A stretch of DNA of 64,000 nt from Bacteroidota bacterium (GTDB lineage: Bacteria > Bacteroidota > Bacteroidia > Chitinophagales > Saprospiraceae): the NCBI GenBank assembly GCA_029557915.1, contig JAKQHS010000007.1:1-64000 (forward strand), written 5' to 3'. Positions 2,016-10,632 of the stretch are shown piece after piece. Each line of letters begins with the position of its first letter. The stretch's first letter is position 1. The notes beneath the pieces are model-generated. The model made no database searches. It had not been told where the DNA came from and saw nothing but the letters and a program-made list of their open reading frames with translations. The translations under genes and the position numbers were made by a program.

Positions 2016-2789
2016 ATGATTAAACGTCGGAAGCCCCTGATTTACCCTTCGCTGGTGGCCGCAAGGCAAAATGGCCGGAAGCAGATGGCGGTATTGATCG
2101 ACCCGGACAAATTGAGGCTGGGTAACCTGGACCGCCTGCTCAAAACCTCCATTGACAGCGGGGTCCATTATTTCTTCATCGGGGGCAGCCTCATCGTCAA
2201 TAACATGCTCGATGCCTGCCTGGAAATCATTTCCGATCACTGCGAAATCCCGCTGGTGCTTTTCCCCGGCAACTCCTTCCAGCTCAGCGATAAAGCCGAT
2301 GCCATTCTTTTTCTTTCTTTGATTTCGGGCCGTAATCCTGAACTGCTGATCGGAAACCATGTCATATCCGCGCCCTTCCTCAAGGCCAGTCCGCTTGAAA
2401 TCCTTTCCACCGGATATATGCTGGTCGATGGCGGGGTCGAAACCACCGTTGCCTATATCAGCAATACCAAGCCCATCCCTGCGCATAAAGACGATATCGC
2501 GGTTTGCACCGCGTTGGCCGGAGAAATGTTGGGACTGAAATTGATCTATCTGGACGCTGGCAGCGGGGCCATCCGCCCGGTGAGCGAATCCATGATCGAA
2601 CAGGTCTCCGCCTCGGTGGACATTCCGGTAATCGTTGGAGGCGGCATCCGCAGTCCTGAAAAAGCCCTGGCACAGGTCCGGGCTGGTGCTGACCTCATCG
2701 TGGTCGGTAACGCCCTGGAAAATGACCCTTCCCTGGCTGGTGAAATAGCCAGCGCGATTCATGGTTACTCCCTCCAGCAAATCACCTGA
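2016..2789 (+). CDS. Geranylgeranylglyceryl phosphate synthase-like prenyltransferase (GGGPS/PcrB family)
   Basis: TIM-barrel prenyltransferase expected to join an all-trans polyprenyl diphosphate to sn-glycerol-1-phosphate, making the ether bond of archaeal-type lipids. The 257-residue sequence shows the family landmarks: MAVLIDPDK at 24-32, FFIGGSL at 53-59, PLVLFPGNSFQLS at 79-91, a run ADAILFLSLISGRNPELLIG, YLDAGSGA at 178-185 and the phosphate-binding IVGGGIRSPEKA at 206-217. Bacteroidota are known to carry such group II enzymes; their physiological lipid product is still poorly understood. Only 3 nt separate the stop from the rsgA start, so the two are probably co-transcribed. Chain length specificity cannot be judged by eye. 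Confidence 0.9.
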   Translation: MIKRRKPLIYPSLVAARQNGRKQMAVLIDPDKLRLGNLDRLLKTSIDSGVHYFFIGGSLIVNNMLDACLEIISDHCEIPLVLFPGNSFQLSDKADAILFLSLISGRNPELLIGNHVISAPFLKASPLEILSTGYMLVDGGVETTVAYISNTKPIPAHKDDIAVCTALAGEMLGLKLIYLDAGSGAIRPVSESMIEQVSASVDIPVIVGGGIRSPEKALAQVRAGADLIVVGNALENDPSLAGEIASAIHGYSLQQIT

Positions 2790-2792
2790 TCC

Positions 2793-3737
2793 ATGCCTAT
2801 CCAGGGAACGGTGGTCAAATCAACCGGCAATTGGTACCAGGTTTCCGCCGGGAACAAGATTTACCCGAGCCGGATCATCGGAAAATTCAGATTGGGGGAC
2901 AAGCTGTTGACCAACCCCGTCGCGGTGGGCGATAAGGTGTTGATCGAACTGGAATCCGATGGCCATGGAATCATCAAAACCATTTTTTCAAGGTCAAATT
3001 ATATCACCCGGCAGTCCCCGCGGCAGCGACACCAGTTGCACCTCCTGGCCGCCAATGTGGACCAGGCCATAGTCGTAGTCACCCTGGTACAGCCGAATCT
3101 CAAACAAGGTTTTATCGACCGCTTCATTTTGATGACCGAGCCCCAAAACATTCCTTGCTCCGTTGTGGTCAACAAATGCGACCTGTTTGGGCCGGAGGAG
3201 GAGGAACAATACCAGGCTTTAAAACAATTGTATGAATCCATTGGTTACCCGGTGATGAATACCTCGGCCACGATGGGGACCGGGATTGACGATTTGAAAA
3301 AACATCTCCGCGACAAAATCACCTTTATCGGCGGACAGAGCGGGGTGGGCAAGTCCACCCTGATCAACGCCATTCAGCCGGGGCTCGATCTGCGCACCAC
3401 AGAAATTTCGGATTACACCGGCAAAGGCACCCATACGACGACCTTTGCGGAAATGCATTCCCTGGATTTCGGCGGCAAGATCATTGACACGCCCGGGATC
3501 AAAACCCTTTCATTCAACAACCTTGAACCCATGGACGTTGCCCATAATTTCAGGGAATTTTTTACGGTTGCCCAGGATTGCAGGTATGGCGATTGCCTTC
3601 ACCGGGACGAACCGGGTTGCGCCGTCAAAAAAGCCCTGGACGAAGGCCGCGTCCATCCCCTCCGGTATGCCAATTATTGCGCGATCCTTGAAGAAATAGA
3701 GGACCAGAACTATTGGGAAAGGCATAAAGAGATGTGA
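2793..3737 (+). CDS. rsgA: Ribosome small-subunit-dependent GTPase RsgA
   Basis: Circularly permuted GTPase that checks and releases late 30S assembly intermediates. In 314 residues it has an N-terminal OB fold (about 1-68), then the permuted G motifs: G4 NKCD at 127-130, G5-like TSAT at 157-160, G1 GQSGVGKST at 181-189 and G3 DTPG at 232-235, followed by the C-terminal zinc knuckle with Cys263, Cys268, His270 and Cys276. All residues expected for GTP binding and zinc binding are present and the length is normal. It follows the prenyltransferase gene by 3 nt; the pairing has no obvious functional meaning and probably just shares the promoter. Confidence 0.97.
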   Translation: MPIQGTVVKSTGNWYQVSAGNKIYPSRIIGKFRLGDKLLTNPVAVGDKVLIELESDGHGIIKTIFSRSNYITRQSPRQRHQLHLLAANVDQAIVVVTLVQPNLKQGFIDRFILMTEPQNIPCSVVVNKCDLFGPEEEEQYQALKQLYESIGYPVMNTSATMGTGIDDLKKHLRDKITFIGGQSGVGKSTLINAIQPGLDLRTTEISDYTGKGTHTTTFAEMHSLDFGGKIIDTPGIKTLSFNNLEPMDVAHNFREFFTVAQDCRYGDCLHRDEPGCAVKKALDEGRVHPLRYANYCAILEEIEDQNYWERHKEM

Positions 3738-3802
3738 GGCGGGGTGGCTTCCGCATCTTTCTTTCCCGGTATTTCATCCTTAGCGCATTCTGGGAGATCA
3801 TC

Positions 3803-3810
3803 TACCTTTG
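3803..3810 (+). promoter_or_regulatory. -7 promoter element of xth (near-leaderless)
   Basis: TACCTTTG is a perfect TAnnTTTG and ends 6 nt before the ATG of the exonuclease gene. A transcript starting at the usual distance would begin at or within a base or two of the start codon. No convincing -33 TTG at 17-23 nt was seen. Confidence 0.45.
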
Positions 3811-3816
3811 CCGCTT

Positions 3817-4581
3817 ATGCGCATCATCACTTACAACGTAAACGGCATCCGCGCTGCCATGAACAAGGGTTTTGCCGATTGGGCCAAGTCCAGTAAGGCG
3901 GACATCATCTGCGTGCAGGAAATCAAGGCCAAGGAAGACCAGATCGATGCCGGTGCCCTTAAAAAAGCCGGGTATGACAGTTATTTTTTCCCGGCTGAAA
4001 AACCCGGGTACAGCGGGGTGGGCATCCTGACCCGGATCAAGCCTGACAATATCGTCACCGGCAGCGGCATGAAAGCCTATGATGAGGAAGGCCGCGCGAT
4101 CCGGATGGACCTGGGCGAGTATACCCTGGTCAATTGGTATTTTCCCAGCGGTACCAGCGGGGAAGTGAGGCAGGATGTCAAAATGAAATTCCTCGATGAG
4201 GTGCTGCCCTGGATGACCCGGTTGAAGGAGGAGAGGAAAAACCTGATTGTGGTGGGGGACTACAACATTGCCCATACGGAACTGGACATCCACAATCCCA
4301 AGGGAAATAAAAATACCAGTGGATTTCTGCCGGAGGAAAGGGCATGGCTGGACAAATGGTTTACTTCAGGCATCCATGACAGTTTCCGCTACCTCAATCC
4401 TGAGAAGGTGGAATACAGTTGGTGGTCGGTGCGCTTTAATGCCCGGGCCCAGAACAAAGGCTGGCGGATCGATTACCAATCGGTGACCGATCCGGTCCTC
4501 CCGTTGTTGAAGGAGGCCAGGCATCTCAATGAAGTGGTGCATTCAGACCATTGTCCCGTTCAGCTCGATCTCAAATTGTAG
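3817..4581 (+). CDS. xth: Exodeoxyribonuclease III (AP endonuclease)
   Basis: DNA repair nuclease of the EEP superfamily, cleaving at abasic sites and degrading duplex DNA 3' to 5'. The 254 residues show N7 in TYNVNG, the metal ligand E35 in QEIKAKE, GYSGVGILTR at 64-73, the nucleophile-activating pair D148/N150 in VVGDYNIAH and D244/H245 in SDHCPVQLDL. I chose the ATG at 3817 rather than an in-frame TTG 9 nt upstream because it lies 6 nt after a perfect TAnnTTTG -7 element and begins exactly at the conserved beta strand MRIITYN. The gene stands alone on this strand between rsgA and a DoxX-like gene. Confidence 0.96.
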   Translation: MRIITYNVNGIRAAMNKGFADWAKSSKADIICVQEIKAKEDQIDAGALKKAGYDSYFFPAEKPGYSGVGILTRIKPDNIVTGSGMKAYDEEGRAIRMDLGEYTLVNWYFPSGTSGEVRQDVKMKFLDEVLPWMTRLKEERKNLIVVGDYNIAHTELDIHNPKGNKNTSGFLPEERAWLDKWFTSGIHDSFRYLNPEKVEYSWWSVRFNARAQNKGWRIDYQSVTDPVLPLLKEARHLNEVVHSDHCPVQLDLKL

Positions 4582-5618: not shown

Positions 5619-8243
5619 TCAGAACAGTTTCTTCTGCCCGTTCCCGTTGACAATCTCAAATTCAACGGCGTTTTTGCCGGTGGGCGCGGAACCGCCTGCC
5701 GTGTTTTCCTTTGGCCGGATACCGGTCAGTTTATATTCGCTCAGCCGGTTGCCCAGGGCTTTCCAGCCCTTGACATCGATGAATTCGGAAAGGCGGATCT
5801 CCCGGGAATGTTTTTGATTCTTCGCTTTCCAGCTGTATTCGATCACCGGGTCTTCTCCGGCCTGGGCGTACAGCAGCCGGGAATCCTTATGCTCGGTGAT
5901 GAATTTAAAGCGGGATCCGGTGGTAGTGGTTTCGATCAAAAACCGTTTGACCATCGTCCATCCTTTGTCCCCATCATAATAGACCGCCCCAATGGGGATT
6001 TCCGGTTCAAATTTTCCGATCCAGATCAGTTCGTCCGCATTATATCTCAGGCTCATTTCCACGGGGTTGAGCTGATAGCTGCCGTCATTCCACAGGCTGA
6101 GGATCAGGTCTCCGGTGTCAAATTCTCCGATGGCTTTACCTCTTTCGTCCGTGTTCAGGCGGCCGGTGACTTCATCCAGCCAGATGGCCTGGGCGCCGAG
6201 TGAGCTCTTCCCTTTTTCTTTCAGGTCCACCCGTTTCACCGGGTACTTGGTGACGGTAATCCCCTTGGACCCGCGTCCCTGGATCTCGAGGCCGGCGAAA
6301 TCAAAGTCAAACTGTTTGATCCGTGCGGTGCAGCCCTGGGAGAGCTGGATGCCTACGATTTCAGATTCACCGTTGGGGTTGGCGCTGAGGTATAAGAGCC
6401 GGCTTTCCTTGTGATCGGTCGCTATCGGGTATTCCTTGTCCCGGGTGACCCCGCCGATCTGGAACCTTTTGGCAAAAGCCTTGCCGCTTTCCCCGTCCAG
6501 ATAGATCACATTATAAACGGTGCGGTCTTCATTTTTTTTCCAGACGTTGACGTATTTCAGGTCCTTGCCCATGAAGACCTTTTCCCCGATGCGGGAGACG
6601 ATCATCTTGCCGTCTTTGCGAAAGGCTACGATATCGTCGATGTCGCTGCATTCTCCGACCAGCCGGGATTGATCTTTCTTCAGCCCCCATCCGATGAATC
6701 CTTCTTTGTCATCCGCGTACAATTTGGTGTTGTTGGCCACTACGGTATGGGCCTGGATGTTTTCAAACTGGGTGATGGTGGTCCTCCTTTCCTTGCCTTC
6801 CCCGTATTTTTTTCGGAGGTGTTCAAACCAGGCAATGGTATATTCGACAAGGTGTCTCAGGTCGTAATGGACCTGTTCCAGCGATTTTTCGGTCTCCAGG
6901 ATCAGTTCATCGGCCTTGAAGGTATTGTATTTGGAAATCCGCTTGATGCGTATTTCCGTGAGCCGGGCTACATCTTCATCGGTGATCTCTCTCCACAGTT
7001 TTAAGCGCTTGTCCCTGGGGCCGGGGTTTTCAGAAGGGGTGGCCACGTATTTTTTCAATTCCAGGTGAATGGTTTCCACCACTTCCTCCCAGCTCTCACA
7101 TTCTTCGATTTCGTGATAGATCCGGTTTTCGATGAAGATCTTTTCCAGGTTTGCAAAATGCCAGACCTCGGTGAGTTCATCCCTTTTGATTTCCAGTTCC
7201 TGTCTCAGCAGGTTCTTGGTGGAGTCGACGTTGTGCCGGAGAATGTCGGCGACGCATACAAACCTCGGCTTTTGGTCCACGATGACGCAGGCATTGGGCG
7301 ATACGGAAAGCTGGCAGTCGGTGAAGGCATACAAGGCGTCGATGGTCACATCCGGGGAAACCCCCGGTTGCAGTTCGATGGCGATTTCAATCTCAGCGGC
7401 GGTATTGTCCGTGATTTTTTTGATTTTGATCTTCCCTTTTTCATTCGCTTTCAGGATGCTTTCGATCAGCGAGGAGGTGGTCGTGCCAAAGGGAATTTCC
7501 GTGATCAGGAGGTTTTTTTTATCCACCGCTTCGATCTTCGCGCGGATTTTCACCCGGCCTCCCCGCTGCCCGTCCTCATATTCTGAAACATCGATGCTGC
7601 CCGCAGTCTGAAAATCCGGATACAATTTGAATTTTTTTCCTTCGAGGTATTTCACGGCCGCGTCGATGATTTCTATAAAATTGTGCGGAAGGATTTTGGT
7701 GGAAAGGCCCACCGCGATTCCCTCCACGCCCTGGGCCAGCAGGATTGGGAATTTCGACGGGAGGAAGGCGGGTTCTTTACGGCGGCCGTCGTAGGACAAC
7801 AACCATCCGGTGGTTTTGGGGTTAAATAAAACCTCCAGCGCAAATTTGGTCAGCCGCGCTTCAATATAACGCGGAGCCGCGGCGCTGGCCCCGGTGCGTG
7901 CATCCCCCCAATTGCCCTGGGTATCGATCAGGAGCTCCATCTGGCCAAGGTTGACCAGGGCATCCCGGATGGCGGCATCCCCGTGCGGGTGATACTGCAT
8001 GGTATGGCCGATCACGTTGGCCACCTTATTGTACCTGCCATCGTCGATTTCGTACAAAGCGTGCAGGATCCTCCTTTGCACGGGTTTGAGACCGTCCTGG
8101 ATCGCGGGCACGGCTCTTTCCAGGATTACATAAGACGCATAATCCAGGAAATAGGACTCGTACATGCTGGTCAGGGAGGTGATTTTGATGCCTTCTGCCC
8201 CTTTGGGTACCGGGATGATGGGCGGCGCTTTTTTCTTTGACAT
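5619..8243 (-). CDS. parC: DNA topoisomerase IV subunit A (ParC/GyrA family)
   Basis: Type IIA topoisomerase breakage-reunion subunit, partner of a ParE ATPase not encoded here. In 874 residues the N-terminal winged-helix domain is clear: AVPAIQDGLKPVQRRIL at 44-60, the HPHGDAAI motif at 85-92 and catalytic Tyr126 in APRYIEAR, preceded by GNWGDARTGASAA. A coiled-coil tower region with DNA gate follows to about residue 480, then a beta-pinwheel-like C-terminal half. The absence of a recognisable GyrA box and the ParC-like spacing favour topoisomerase IV over gyrase, but the two are hard to separate by eye. A perfect -7 element lies 19 nt upstream of the ATG. The C-terminal tail is Lys/Glu-rich and ends in an unusual NGNGQKKLF. 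Confidence 0.9.
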   Translation of the reverse strand: MSKKKAPPIIPVPKGAEGIKITSLTSMYESYFLDYASYVILERAVPAIQDGLKPVQRRILHALYEIDDGRYNKVANVIGHTMQYHPHGDAAIRDALVNLGQMELLIDTQGNWGDARTGASAAAPRYIEARLTKFALEVLFNPKTTGWLLSYDGRRKEPAFLPSKFPILLAQGVEGIAVGLSTKILPHNFIEIIDAAVKYLEGKKFKLYPDFQTAGSIDVSEYEDGQRGGRVKIRAKIEAVDKKNLLITEIPFGTTTSSLIESILKANEKGKIKIKKITDNTAAEIEIAIELQPGVSPDVTIDALYAFTDCQLSVSPNACVIVDQKPRFVCVADILRHNVDSTKNLLRQELEIKRDELTEVWHFANLEKIFIENRIYHEIEECESWEEVVETIHLELKKYVATPSENPGPRDKRLKLWREITDEDVARLTEIRIKRISKYNTFKADELILETEKSLEQVHYDLRHLVEYTIAWFEHLRKKYGEGKERRTTITQFENIQAHTVVANNTKLYADDKEGFIGWGLKKDQSRLVGECSDIDDIVAFRKDGKMIVSRIGEKVFMGKDLKYVNVWKKNEDRTVYNVIYLDGESGKAFAKRFQIGGVTRDKEYPIATDHKESRLLYLSANPNGESEIVGIQLSQGCTARIKQFDFDFAGLEIQGRGSKGITVTKYPVKRVDLKEKGKSSLGAQAIWLDEVTGRLNTDERGKAIGEFDTGDLILSLWNDGSYQLNPVEMSLRYNADELIWIGKFEPEIPIGAVYYDGDKGWTMVKRFLIETTTTGSRFKFITEHKDSRLLYAQAGEDPVIEYSWKAKNQKHSREIRLSEFIDVKGWKALGNRLSEYKLTGIRPKENTAGGSAPTGKNAVEFEIVNGNGQKKLF

Positions 8244-8270: not shown

Positions 8271-8383
8271 TTAAAATTAGTAATAATCTGAAAACAAGGC
8301 ATGGGCCTGAGCCCGTTGACGGGCAAGGAATCCCCTTTTTTTGCCAAAGCGTTAAAATCGACGACCGGCAAAGCAGCAAGGGC

Positions 8384-8424
8384 TTGAATCTCGCCGTTTT
8401 AGTTTAATTTGGAGGATTAAATCC
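8384..8424 (+). promoter_or_regulatory. Candidate promoter and operator-like palindrome of the ECF sigma operon
   Basis: TTG (8384-8386), 17 nt, then TTAATTTG (8404-8411), one mismatch from TAnnTTTG. Immediately after it sits a perfect palindrome GGATT-A-AATCC (8414-8424), covering the expected transcription start and ending 7 nt before the ATG. Upstream, at 8303-8323, two mutually exclusive small hairpins (GGGC-CTGA-GCCC and CCCGT-TG-ACGGG) overlap, lying in the divergent gap to parC. Confidence 0.4.
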
Positions 8425-8431
8425 AAGGGTC

Positions 8432-8992
8432 ATGGATATTATCATTCCTTTACAATCCGAAGAAGAGTTCATCAAAGCCTGCTCGCGCAACGAACGATGG
8501 GCCCAGAAAAAACTCTATGAGGACCATTATGGCATCATGATGGGTCTCTGTCTGCGTTATGCCAACAACGACGAAGACGCGCTGGACATCATGCACGAAG
8601 GTTTCATAAAGGTCTTTAAGCACATCAGCAAGTACCAGCCGGGCACCTCTTTGTCCGCCTGGATCCGGAGGATCATGGTCAATACCTCCATCGATTATTA
8701 CCGGAAAGAAAACCGTCGCCGGACCGAAAACCTGGAGACGGCTTATGCCATAGGCACCGATGATGTGGATGCAATCAGTCAGTGCACGGAAAAAGAAATC
8801 CTTACGGCCATCCAGGAACTTACTTTCGCCTACCGGTCGGTCTTCAATCTTTATGTCCTGGAAGGCTATTCGCACCGGGAAATTGCGGAGCAACTGGGCA
8901 TTACGGAAAGCACTTCAAGATCCAACCTGGTCAAAGCCAGGATTAAACTGAAAGAAATACTGTTGGGAAAAGGAAAATTGCATGAACACTGA
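8432..8992 (+). CDS. ECF-type RNA polymerase sigma factor
   Basis: A 186-residue sigma-70 family factor with only regions 2 and 4. Region 2 is seen from about residue 20 to 90 (KLYEDHYGIMMGLCLRY, DALDIMHEGFIKVFKHI, then LSAWIRRIMVNTSIDYYRKE); region 4 from about 125 to 180, with the helix-turn-helix YSHREIAEQLGITESTSRSN and LVKARIKL. Typical Bacteroidota ECF factors of this kind are held at the membrane by a partner encoded next door. Here the stop overlaps the start of the following gene by 11 nt, so the two are translationally coupled and the downstream protein is the likely regulator. A palindrome sits between the candidate -7 element and the start codon, which could allow autoregulation. 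Confidence 0.93.
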   Translation: MDIIIPLQSEEEFIKACSRNERWAQKKLYEDHYGIMMGLCLRYANNDEDALDIMHEGFIKVFKHISKYQPGTSLSAWIRRIMVNTSIDYYRKENRRRTENLETAYAIGTDDVDAISQCTEKEILTAIQELTFAYRSVFNLYVLEGYSHREIAEQLGITESTSRSNLVKARIKLKEILLGKGKLHEH

Positions 8993-10559
8993 GGAGTTTG
9001 ATGATATTATCAGAAACAAGGTAACCCAGCCGGCCGCCTCCGAAGGCCCCAGGGACTGGGATTTGTTTATGCTGTCCGCCATCGATAAGGGTGAGGAAAA
9101 GATATTTGAAGATCACCCGACGGACCGTGTGGTCAATGAGGCTCTGGGTGAATTTAAGGCAGACTATAATGCCGGACACTGGGACCTTATGGCCCGCAAA
9201 CTGGACGAAGAGGTGCCGGATCAACCGGTCGTTCATGCCCGCTTTGACAAAACCGTTTCCAATTCCCTGAAAGGCATCACCCGGAAATACGATGCCTCCA
9301 CCTGGCCTAAACTGGCCGCCAGGATCGAAGCGGAAGAAAAATACCTTCGGCATTATTACCGGGCGAAGATGATTGAGGCCGTCCTGTTTTGCCTGTTGGT
9401 CCTTACTCTCTTCCAGATCAGCCGTTCCGGAAAATTCACCCCTCCATTTATAAAAACGGCCGAACCTGAAACGGCACTACGGAATAATTCAAACCATGAC
9501 GGGGATCAGGCCATTGCGACGCTTTATCCGAAAACGGAGAATAATACTTCTATTGCGTTAAATAACTCATCAGGGAATACAACTGGTACGAATTCCCCTG
9601 GAGCCCTGTCGGCCACCACATCCGGCGGGATGGACCTGACCTCAGCGTCCCGGCCGGTAGTTGCAAGGCATGACGTACTGCTGGAAAGAATTAGCTCCCG
9701 TCAAAGTCTTATTGGTTCCGGCCAGATTTATTCCAGGCTGGATGGCAAGGTCAAGTCTCTGCCCCTTCTCCAGGAATTAAGCGGAGAACCGGTGGAGGAT
9801 GGGGAAGAAGCATTGCTCGCACACCAACTGGTCCCCGTACCGGAACCTTCAAGCCTTGAGTTGCCCGATGTGGTGAAATTAACGGTCAAGGGGGGATGGA
9901 AACTGGGTATGTATTCCCATTTTGATTACAATCAAATCTACCTGCCTGACCAGCAGTTCCTGGTTTTCGGTAAAAAATCCGATTTATATCCGGCTACGAC
10001 GGTAAGTTCCACAGGTTATGGCGCCGGGTTTAAAATGCATTACCTCAAAAACCGGTTCGGCCTTGAATTCGGCCTGGGTTATGCTAATCGGTCTTATTCT
10101 CCTTCCAGGGCTTATTACCTTGATCCTTATTGGAATATAAATTTCAAAAAAATTGAATACGATATTGTTGCACTCCCAATCGCTGTCAGGTATACCACGA
10201 AAAGCAACACCCGCCTGAAACCCTATGCCATGGCCGGCATCAACGCCAACTTTATTGCCAAGGCGATTTATGATGTACTGCCTGAAATCAAGCAGGTCAA
10301 TTTCAACGGGGAACGCAAATTGAATGCCGTCCAAAATTCAATTTACAGCCGGGTACAGGACCAGTTTACCCACCTCGACAGGAGGCGTGCCCTGCTTTAC
10401 GGACAGGGCTCCCTGGGCCTGGAGTGGAAAGTCAATTCCAGCCTGGATGTCTATTCCCAACTGACTTATGCCCAGCGTTTCCTCAACAGACAATTTGGTC
10501 CAAACTGGGATCAGTTCAGGTCCTTGTCTTTGGAGATCGGGTTGAAGACGGGATTGTAG
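8982..10559 (+). CDS. Envelope protein coupled to an ECF sigma factor: 41-residue cytoplasmic repeats, one membrane helix, beta-barrel-like C-terminus
   Basis: This 525-residue protein overlaps the sigma gene by 11 nt. Residues 1-120 contain three repeats of exactly 41 residues, marked by Trp26, Trp67 and Trp108 and by the shared pattern (F)D-x-x-V-x-x-x-L-(x6)-Y-(x4)-W-x-x-L/M-x-A-R. A single hydrophobic helix at about 130-147 (AVLFCLLVLTLFQIS) follows, then a polar, Ser/Thr/Asn-rich linker to about 300, and a C-terminal region of alternating aromatic/Gly strands (for example YGAGFKMHYLKNRFGLEFGLGYANRSY split over two strands) resembling the PF13568-type outer-membrane beta-barrel. The layout suggests an anti-sigma-like cytoplasmic domain wired through the inner membrane to an outer-membrane or periplasmic sensor. 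This role is inference from coupling; no characterised homologue is recognised. Confidence 0.7.
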   Translation: MNTEEFDDIIRNKVTQPAASEGPRDWDLFMLSAIDKGEEKIFEDHPTDRVVNEALGEFKADYNAGHWDLMARKLDEEVPDQPVVHARFDKTVSNSLKGITRKYDASTWPKLAARIEAEEKYLRHYYRAKMIEAVLFCLLVLTLFQISRSGKFTPPFIKTAEPETALRNNSNHDGDQAIATLYPKTENNTSIALNNSSGNTTGTNSPGALSATTSGGMDLTSASRPVVARHDVLLERISSRQSLIGSGQIYSRLDGKVKSLPLLQELSGEPVEDGEEALLAHQLVPVPEPSSLELPDVVKLTVKGGWKLGMYSHFDYNQIYLPDQQFLVFGKKSDLYPATTVSSTGYGAGFKMHYLKNRFGLEFGLGYANRSYSPSRAYYLDPYWNINFKKIEYDIVALPIAVRYTTKSNTRLKPYAMAGINANFIAKAIYDVLPEIKQVNFNGERKLNAVQNSIYSRVQDQFTHLDRRRALLYGQGSLGLEWKVNSSLDVYSQLTYAQRFLNRQFGPNWDQFRSLSLEIGLKTGL

Positions 10560-10597
10560 TTAGAAAGTTAGAAAGTTAGCAAGTTAGCAAGTTGAGG
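10558..10597 (+). repeat. Octamer tandem array, unit AGTTAGMA (x5)
   Basis: Five consecutive 8-bp units (AGTTAGAA twice, AGTTAGCA twice, then AGTTGAGG) begin inside the TAG stop codon of the preceding gene. It is followed by a C/A-rich stretch (10600-10626) whose complement is a degenerate GGTGGTT-type repeat in the sense direction of the opposing amidotransferase gene. Confidence 0.85.
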
Positions 10598-10632
10598 TTA
10601 ACCACCACCCACCAACCACCACTCACCTATTC

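Follow-up and report, generated by a model that had tools for sequence, protein, structure and literature searches.

The closest described systems to the locus considered here are the Dma proteins, whose founding description is reportedly that of Pardue (2024) in PNAS, and the EcfO-Reo pair, reportedly described by Ndamukong (2013) in Bacteroides fragilis. Dma/Reo proteins of Bacteroidota have been published as anti-sigma factors that run from the cytosol to the outer membrane (PMC13088901, PMC13114119, PMC9308784). The name Dma stands for "dual membrane-spanning anti-sigma", a family stated to be confined to Bacteroidota; in Bacteroides thetaiotaomicron, Dma1–3 pair with Das sigma factors, deletion of dma2 up-regulates das2 itself, and Dma3 has its own sigma factor at its N terminus (PMC13088901). 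In EcfO-Reo of B. fragilis and Phocaeicola vulgatus, the sigma factor is followed by an anti-sigma factor that spans from the cytoplasm to the cell surface (PMC9308784, PMC13114119). The two genes analyzed here lie on a 64,000-nucleotide (nt) stretch of DNA from a member of the Bacteroidota (class Bacteroidia, family Saprospiraceae; assembly GCA_029557915.1, contig JAKQHS010000007.1, positions 1 to 64,000, forward strand), which is referred to as the window.

The two genes very probably constitute an autoregulated operon of the Dma/Reo kind, composed of an extracytoplasmic function (ECF) sigma factor and an anti-sigma factor with a multiplied sigma-binding region. What was observed is the predicted architecture of the downstream protein, its homology to proteins in Bacteroidales records, its strict pairing with a sigma gene, a conserved promoter motif, and lability in the number of a tryptophan-centered repeat, termed the W-module. 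The initial annotation of the window had described an ECF sigma gene overlapping its partner by 11 nt, and the two open reading frames (ORFs), 8432-8992 and 8982-10559, bear this out. The features of the locus, with support from Pfam and AlphaFold2, in which confidence is expressed as the predicted local distance difference test (pLDDT), are as follows.

8373..8398, plus strand: putative sigma-dependent operon promoter, GCAGC at 8373-8377, a 17-nt spacer, and CGTT at 8395-8398, 59 nt upstream of the start codon of the sigma gene
8432..8992, plus strand: ECF sigma factor gene P0002, 186 residues (Pfam Sigma70_r2, 7.5e-18; Sigma70_r4_2, 4.7e-16)
8982..10559, plus strand: Dma/Reo-type putative anti-sigma gene P0001, 525 residues, the 3' partner of the sigma gene
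8997..9095, plus strand: W-module 1 (degenerate), residues 6-38 around Trp26, leave-out score 14.7 bits
9120..9218, plus strand: W-module 2, residues 47-79 around Trp67, leave-out score 41.9 bits
9243..9341, plus strand: W-module 3, residues 88-120 around Trp108, leave-out score 39.4 bits
9363..9419, plus strand: inner-membrane helix, residues ~128-146, N terminus probably inside (hydropathy peak 2.02, charge bias)
9429..9887, plus strand: periplasmic tether, residues ~150-302, mostly disordered in the model (pLDDT < 50 at 150-231 and 238-302)
9891..10556, plus strand: predicted C-terminal outer-membrane β-barrel, residues 304-525 (AlphaFold2 strands, pLDDT mostly > 90)

The W-module is a shared motif of ~33 residues, the best residues of which are FDQIIREKLENLEVPYDPMHWDMMEQRLDAE. 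Leave-out scores derive from a motif model whose training set of relatives contained neither the window protein nor L002, the relative closest to it; among 3000 shuffles of residues 1-127 the highest score is 7.6 bits, below all three modules. In a model-free self-comparison, a shift of 41 gives a score of 50, which is matched by 0 of 2000 shuffles at any shift from 20 to 69. The three 41-residue repeats at Trp26, Trp67, and Trp108 that had been noted in the initial annotation are therefore repeated far beyond chance, but module 1 is degenerate, and the exact 41-residue spacing is local to the window protein and not conserved in relatives, where the spacing is mostly 31 to 49 residues, with a peak at 41-43 and a few values up to 84. 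Identical residues number 5 of 33 between modules 1 and 2, 4 of 33 between modules 1 and 3, and 8 of 33 between modules 2 and 3. In the AlphaFold2 model of the window protein, calculated from an alignment with 25 family sequences, each module is modeled as a helix pair with a pLDDT of 58-72 when sigma is not included (72-89 for the last helix of module 3). The second helix of module 3 is continuous with the membrane helix, forming a single helix that comprises residues 107-148.

The pairing with a sigma gene was followed through several sets of relatives. A single-sequence search matched 196 of the 248 same-family genomes, the window's own among them, and the family set consists of 133 places drawn from genomes with a match (L001-L073 and L120-L179, in which L071 is the same place as L017 and L073 the same as L069). 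A sigma gene is found directly upstream in 130 of the 133 loci, and the other three (L035, L064, and L135) reach a contig edge; homologues lacking a nearby sigma gene, which the initial annotation had named as grounds for refuting its reading, were thus not encountered in the window's family. The 11-nt overlap is the commonest arrangement in these family-level pairs (38 of 130), and the window sigma factor is 58-70% identical to 19 aligned family orthologues. The second set, L074-L099, includes two loci from the same family; a sigma gene is present in 25 of its 26 loci, the exception being L094, a barrel-only protein. In a third set (L100-L119), a sigma gene accompanies all 15 proteins that have both a W-module and a membrane helix and none of the four barrel-only proteins, and the barrel-only proteins of L217, L226, and L236 likewise have no sigma gene. 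Overall, ECF genes with an adjacent W-module occur in many families of the class to which the window belongs, and also in some genomes from outside that class.

Some members of these sets are worth describing individually. The window's draft genome (G000, 5.04 Mb) contains a single copy of the window protein at E ≤ 1 by single-sequence search. A profile search revealed a further pair of the Dma type in the same genome, comprising an ECF sigma gene of its own and a protein with one W-module (L100, G000:C25); its anti-sigma ORF occupies positions 2725-4023 of the locus on the minus strand, on a contig other than that of the window. At L112, a W-module protein of 132 residues is encoded at 2701-3099 and adjoins a small secreted barrel-like protein.

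Relatives in named records were reached from the sigma side. When the window protein was first scanned against named genomes, by short peptide patterns of the query, no relative emerged. The named-record set comprises 80 loci, the best of at least 587, which were found with Bacteroidales-like sigma factors and chosen for closeness to those. Starting from these sigma genes, a downstream ORF of at least 150 residues is present at 79 of the 80 loci, mostly Bacteroidales by title, and a membrane helix in 79 of 79. The W-module score of the N terminus exceeds the 99th shuffle percentile in 72 of these 79 proteins, and the best match is centered on a tryptophan in 78. At the C terminus, the family barrel aligns with 13 named-record proteins, by title all Bacteroidales except one (Chryseobacterium), with an hhalign probability of 98.7 and an E value of 1.8e-16. 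The sigma factors paired with Dma/Reo proteins are placed in group ECF21; the sigma factor of P. vulgatus ATCC 8482 that lies beside a Reo-type gene (L259) is 40% identical to the window sigma factor.

The remainder of the putative anti-sigma protein is predicted to connect the two membranes. The single membrane helix of the initial annotation is supported by hydropathy and charge bias: lysine and arginine number 4 in the 15 residues before the helix and 3 in the 15 residues after it, and the corresponding means in 124 relatives are 3.78 and 1.43 (before greater than after in 106, equal in 13, and less in 5). This excess of positive charge on the N-terminal side of the helix predicts a cytoplasmic N terminus. 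The stretch between the helix and the last 225 residues is 129-207 residues long (5-95%) in the same number of relatives. The barrel-like C terminus, also proposed at the outset, is recovered as eight long strands (our count, residues 304-524 of the model), and a fold comparison of residues 301-525 gives Z scores of ~15-17 to the small outer-membrane barrels OmpA, NspA, OmpW, and OprG. Pfam hits of the window protein are to outer-membrane barrel models only and fall below the cut-offs (OMP_b-brl); OMP_b-brl_2 is matched at E ≤ 0.1 by 21 of the 25 family members searched. Most of the chains lack the usual aromatic residue at the C terminus (the last residue is Leu in 31, Lys in 29, Arg in 18, and Phe in 7 of 124). 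No named anti-sigma family in Pfam or NCBIfam matches the N terminus of the window protein, and no anti-sigma Pfam domain is found among 25 family members at E ≤ 0.1. A comparison of the family profile with solved structures gave no credible match (best E value 0.31), and in fold searches no anti-sigma domain surfaced, the lists being filled by barrels or sigma factors.

The promoter motif is shared among relatives. The pair CAGC-N17-CGTT occurs in 68 of 111 non-redundant sigma upstream regions, and the best chance pair in five shuffles occurs in 8-10. A relaxed form (GCAG[CT], spacer, CGTT) is present in 96 of 130 loci, to which the window copy is an exact match; of the 34 loci that miss it, 7 have less than 70 nt of upstream sequence, and 27 have 200 nt and lack the motif. 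Across 82 loci totaling 696 kb, the strict motif has 41 matches near sigma and 3 elsewhere. GCAGC-N17-CGTT resembles an ECF −35/−10 pair, and the presence of such a motif before the sigma gene makes autoregulation the natural reading and suggests that the operon is transcribed by its own sigma factor.

There is considerable variability in the number of W-modules. With a threshold of 8 bits, for which the background is nine hits after the membrane helix in the 130 family-level proteins, one module is counted in 7 of these proteins, two in 64, three in 44, four in 12, and five in 3. L074 and L075, from the same family as the window, have three modules each. Outside the family, 37 pairs include 5 with no module, 30 with one, 1 with two (L081), and 1 with three (L088). 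None of the 79 named-record proteins scores two modules, even at the 99th shuffle percentile (72 with one and 7 with none). Several modules can also be discerned by eye in L212 and L218, which come from other families of the class. In the 294-residue protein beside the sigma gene of L088 (904-1788, minus strand), visual inspection suggests approximately four with a spacing of 32 residues, three of which pass 8 bits. On a quick FastTree tree of 134 sigma factors, module number changes at least 38 times, a value that tree errors, given such similar sequences, would raise; in 30 shuffled labelings the changes average 60.8 and never fall below 56. An identity of 50% or more is seen in 11 of 200 pairs of adjacent modules, compared with 0.6% of between-protein pairs. 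The labile number, together with the similarity of some adjacent modules, indicates that modules are gained and lost by tandem duplication. Mean scores of threshold-passing modules, ranked from the membrane, are 43.3, 41.5, 41.1, and 42.4 bits.

Homology, gene pairing, and suggestive structure prediction together suggest that the W-modules bind sigma. The docking model makes use of the relative L172, in which the sigma and anti-sigma genes are in frame, one stop codon and 16 codons apart, with the stop read as a residue. The read-through alignment contained 74 rows; module-only rows that aligned wrongly to the sigma part were dropped, whereas L151, which aligned correctly, was kept. The chain of sigma and two modules was predicted with a predicted template modeling score of 0.70 and with pLDDT values of 90-96 for the first module, ~75-93 for the second, and 64-69 for the sigma-module linker. 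As in the window protein, the last module helix runs into the membrane helix. The modeled sigma has a compact arrangement, and its nearest overall match is SigW in complex with RsiW (Z 13.4, 155 of 155 residues aligned, root-mean-square deviation (rmsd) 4.8); it is less close to CnrH with CnrY (Z 11.0, rmsd 6.0), and sigma factors of initiation complexes, with both domains aligned, lie at ~21-28 Å rmsd. In a mirror-tree analysis of 110 pairs, the partial correlations with sigma given the barrel are 0.21 for the first module, 0.25 for the last, and 0.30 for the membrane segment, values reached by at most 1 of 500 permutations.

From here the account is inferential: that the protein inhibits sigma, what signals to it, how sigma is set free, autoregulation itself, and why the modules are repeated. 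The following scheme would accommodate the findings. At rest, sigma would be kept from RNA polymerase by the cytoplasmic W-modules, which would hold it at the inner membrane. The chain that carries them would cross this membrane once, span the periplasm through the ~150-residue disordered tether, and end in the small outer-membrane barrel. Outer-membrane stress or a ligand of the barrel may sever this link or put tension on it, with proteolysis close to the membrane helix as the probable route, and the freed sigma would transcribe its own operon from the GCAGC-N17-CGTT promoter as well as a further regulon. The extra W-modules would most likely let each chain hold more sigma or bind it with higher avidity.

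Several results weigh against this reading. BLASTP, as a single-sequence comparison, shows no N-terminal similarity to the P. vulgatus protein, and the hhalign match to named-record proteins covers the barrel only; module homology to the named records therefore rests on the motif score, and at 8 bits 40 of the 79 proteins score no module and 39 score one. The pairing also has its exceptions: the L112 protein has a W-module with neither a membrane helix nor a sigma neighbor, and at three places (the single chains of L227 and L230 and the two ORFs of L224) a sigma factor occurs with a barrel and no recognized W-module. In the structural comparison, SigG1 (7qh5), which was solved without an anti-sigma factor, also fits the modeled sigma (Z 11.2, rmsd 4.6), so the compact sigma arrangement proves little. 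The pLDDT values of the docked and sigma-free modules are unmatched, coming from different proteins and different alignments, and the read-through join may favor docking of module 1. Mirror-tree correlation with sigma is weak for the modules (r 0.32-0.34) and higher for the barrel (r 0.52). Finally, the relaxed promoter pattern is not over-represented in the window genome, with 26 sites compared with 29 for a reversed control, and the strict pattern has 4 sites compared with 7. The four strict sites are the sigma promoter, two sites within same-strand ORFs, and one site with no ORF of more than 100 residues within 330 nt downstream; the inspection of site context covered 10 of the 26 relaxed-pattern loci. 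No second conserved promoter target was found, and since sites are no commoner than in the reversed control, no regulon can be read from the pattern.

Within the Dma/Reo reading, the tandem repeat of one to five copies could let one sensor chain hold several sigma factors, with module number setting the threshold or gain of the response, a tentative proposal to which we give less than even weight. The lability in copy number, the prevalence of single modules outside the family and in the named records, and the slightly stronger coupling of sigma to the last module and membrane segment than to the first are also what would be seen if a single W-module, probably the membrane-proximal one, bound sigma and the others were near-neutral tandem duplicates or spacers. 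This account seems rather doubtful: distal modules above the threshold have scores similar to that of the last one, which counts against neutral leftovers, at least two modules are kept in 123 of the 130 family-level proteins, and it is the first of the two modules in L172 that is better predicted beside sigma, though the join may bias this result.

The role of the protein as a whole and the location of its barrel must also be considered. The lack of an anti-sigma Pfam domain, and the closer tracking of sigma by the barrel than by the modules in sequence distance, would fit an outer-membrane target or sensor that is merely co-transcribed with sigma. Such a role is very improbable, given that in the third set the 4 barrel-only relatives have no sigma neighbor whereas the 15 proteins with W-module and helix have one, and that the homologous Dma2/Das2 of B. 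thetaiotaomicron and EcfO-Reo of P. vulgatus show anti-sigma behavior genetically (PMC13088901, PMC9308784, PMC13114119). It is improbable, to a lesser degree, that the barrel domain remains periplasmic or is cleaved, such that the protein does not span both membranes. The membrane anchor with no separate signal peptide (by eye) and the scarcity of a C-terminal aromatic residue would agree with a periplasmic barrel, but the closeness of the predicted fold to small outer-membrane barrels, the long tether, and published descriptions of relatives reaching the outer membrane (PMC13088901, PMC13114119) argue otherwise.

With respect to its surroundings, the operon is preceded by a divergent gene at 5619-8243 that resembles topoisomerase subunit A (named by eye). 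A similar divergent topoisomerase neighbor is found in 32 of 82 related loci and one downstream gene in 16 of 82, these being the top of the neighbor list; as neighbor conservation is no better than this, the operon probably consists of just the sigma and anti-sigma genes. A simple-sequence tract at 10560-10625, made up of repeated "gttag..." and "ccacc..." units, lies immediately 3' of the anti-sigma gene.

In a published survey, class I anti-sigma domains adjoined only 6% of Bacteroidetes ECF genes, and it was suggested that other anti-sigma classes may dominate there (PMC7406223). The W-module is a concrete candidate for such a class and could fill part of that gap. Natural variants with one to five modules, paired with sigma factors that are 58-70% identical to that of the window in 19 aligned relatives, make an effect of valency on the stress response testable, and the conserved promoter could serve as a ready reporter.

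Class I anti-sigma domains are composed of four helices, three of which contact sigma region 4 and the fourth region 2. Similar to the class I and class II domains (RseA, RsiW, and ChrR; CnrY), the W-module region is predicted to be a small helical cytoplasmic domain that precedes a membrane helix. Each module is predicted as two helices rather than the four of the class I domain, is repeated, and has no anti-sigma Pfam match. Judged by its sequence features, the window pair belongs to the Dma/Reo kind and is not a new class. The initial annotation had seen in it an unusual envelope-spanning sigma regulator; the architecture, the sigma pairing, and the unusual repetition of modules all stand, but the class had already been published. 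The P. vulgatus locus L259 resembles EcfO-Reo in its layout, with a sigma homologous to that of the window and a protein that combines one W-module, located at Trp27, with a membrane helix and a barrel; from this layout, rather than from a locus tag, L259 is taken to be the EcfO-Reo locus itself. It differs from the window protein in that its chain has 431 residues and one module only. The single ORFs at L227 (1420-3063, minus strand) and L230 (307-2010, plus strand) each encode an ECF sigma joined to a hydrophobic segment and a barrel, and these chains resemble Dma3 as reported. As in Dma systems, a likeness that for the B. thetaiotaomicron proteins is by published description and not by sequence, a sigma gene lies beside a gene for a putative N-terminal sigma-binding domain, a membrane helix, a long disordered tether, and a C-terminal barrel. 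No repeated anti-sigma modules in Dma proteins were seen in the literature searched, although a mention in print, including in the founding Dma paper, is possible. The main differences from Dma are the two to five W-modules in 123 of 130 family-level proteins and the conserved promoter motif, and what looks new is the repeated, copy-number-variable, predicted sigma-binding region that is paired with a strongly conserved sigma factor.

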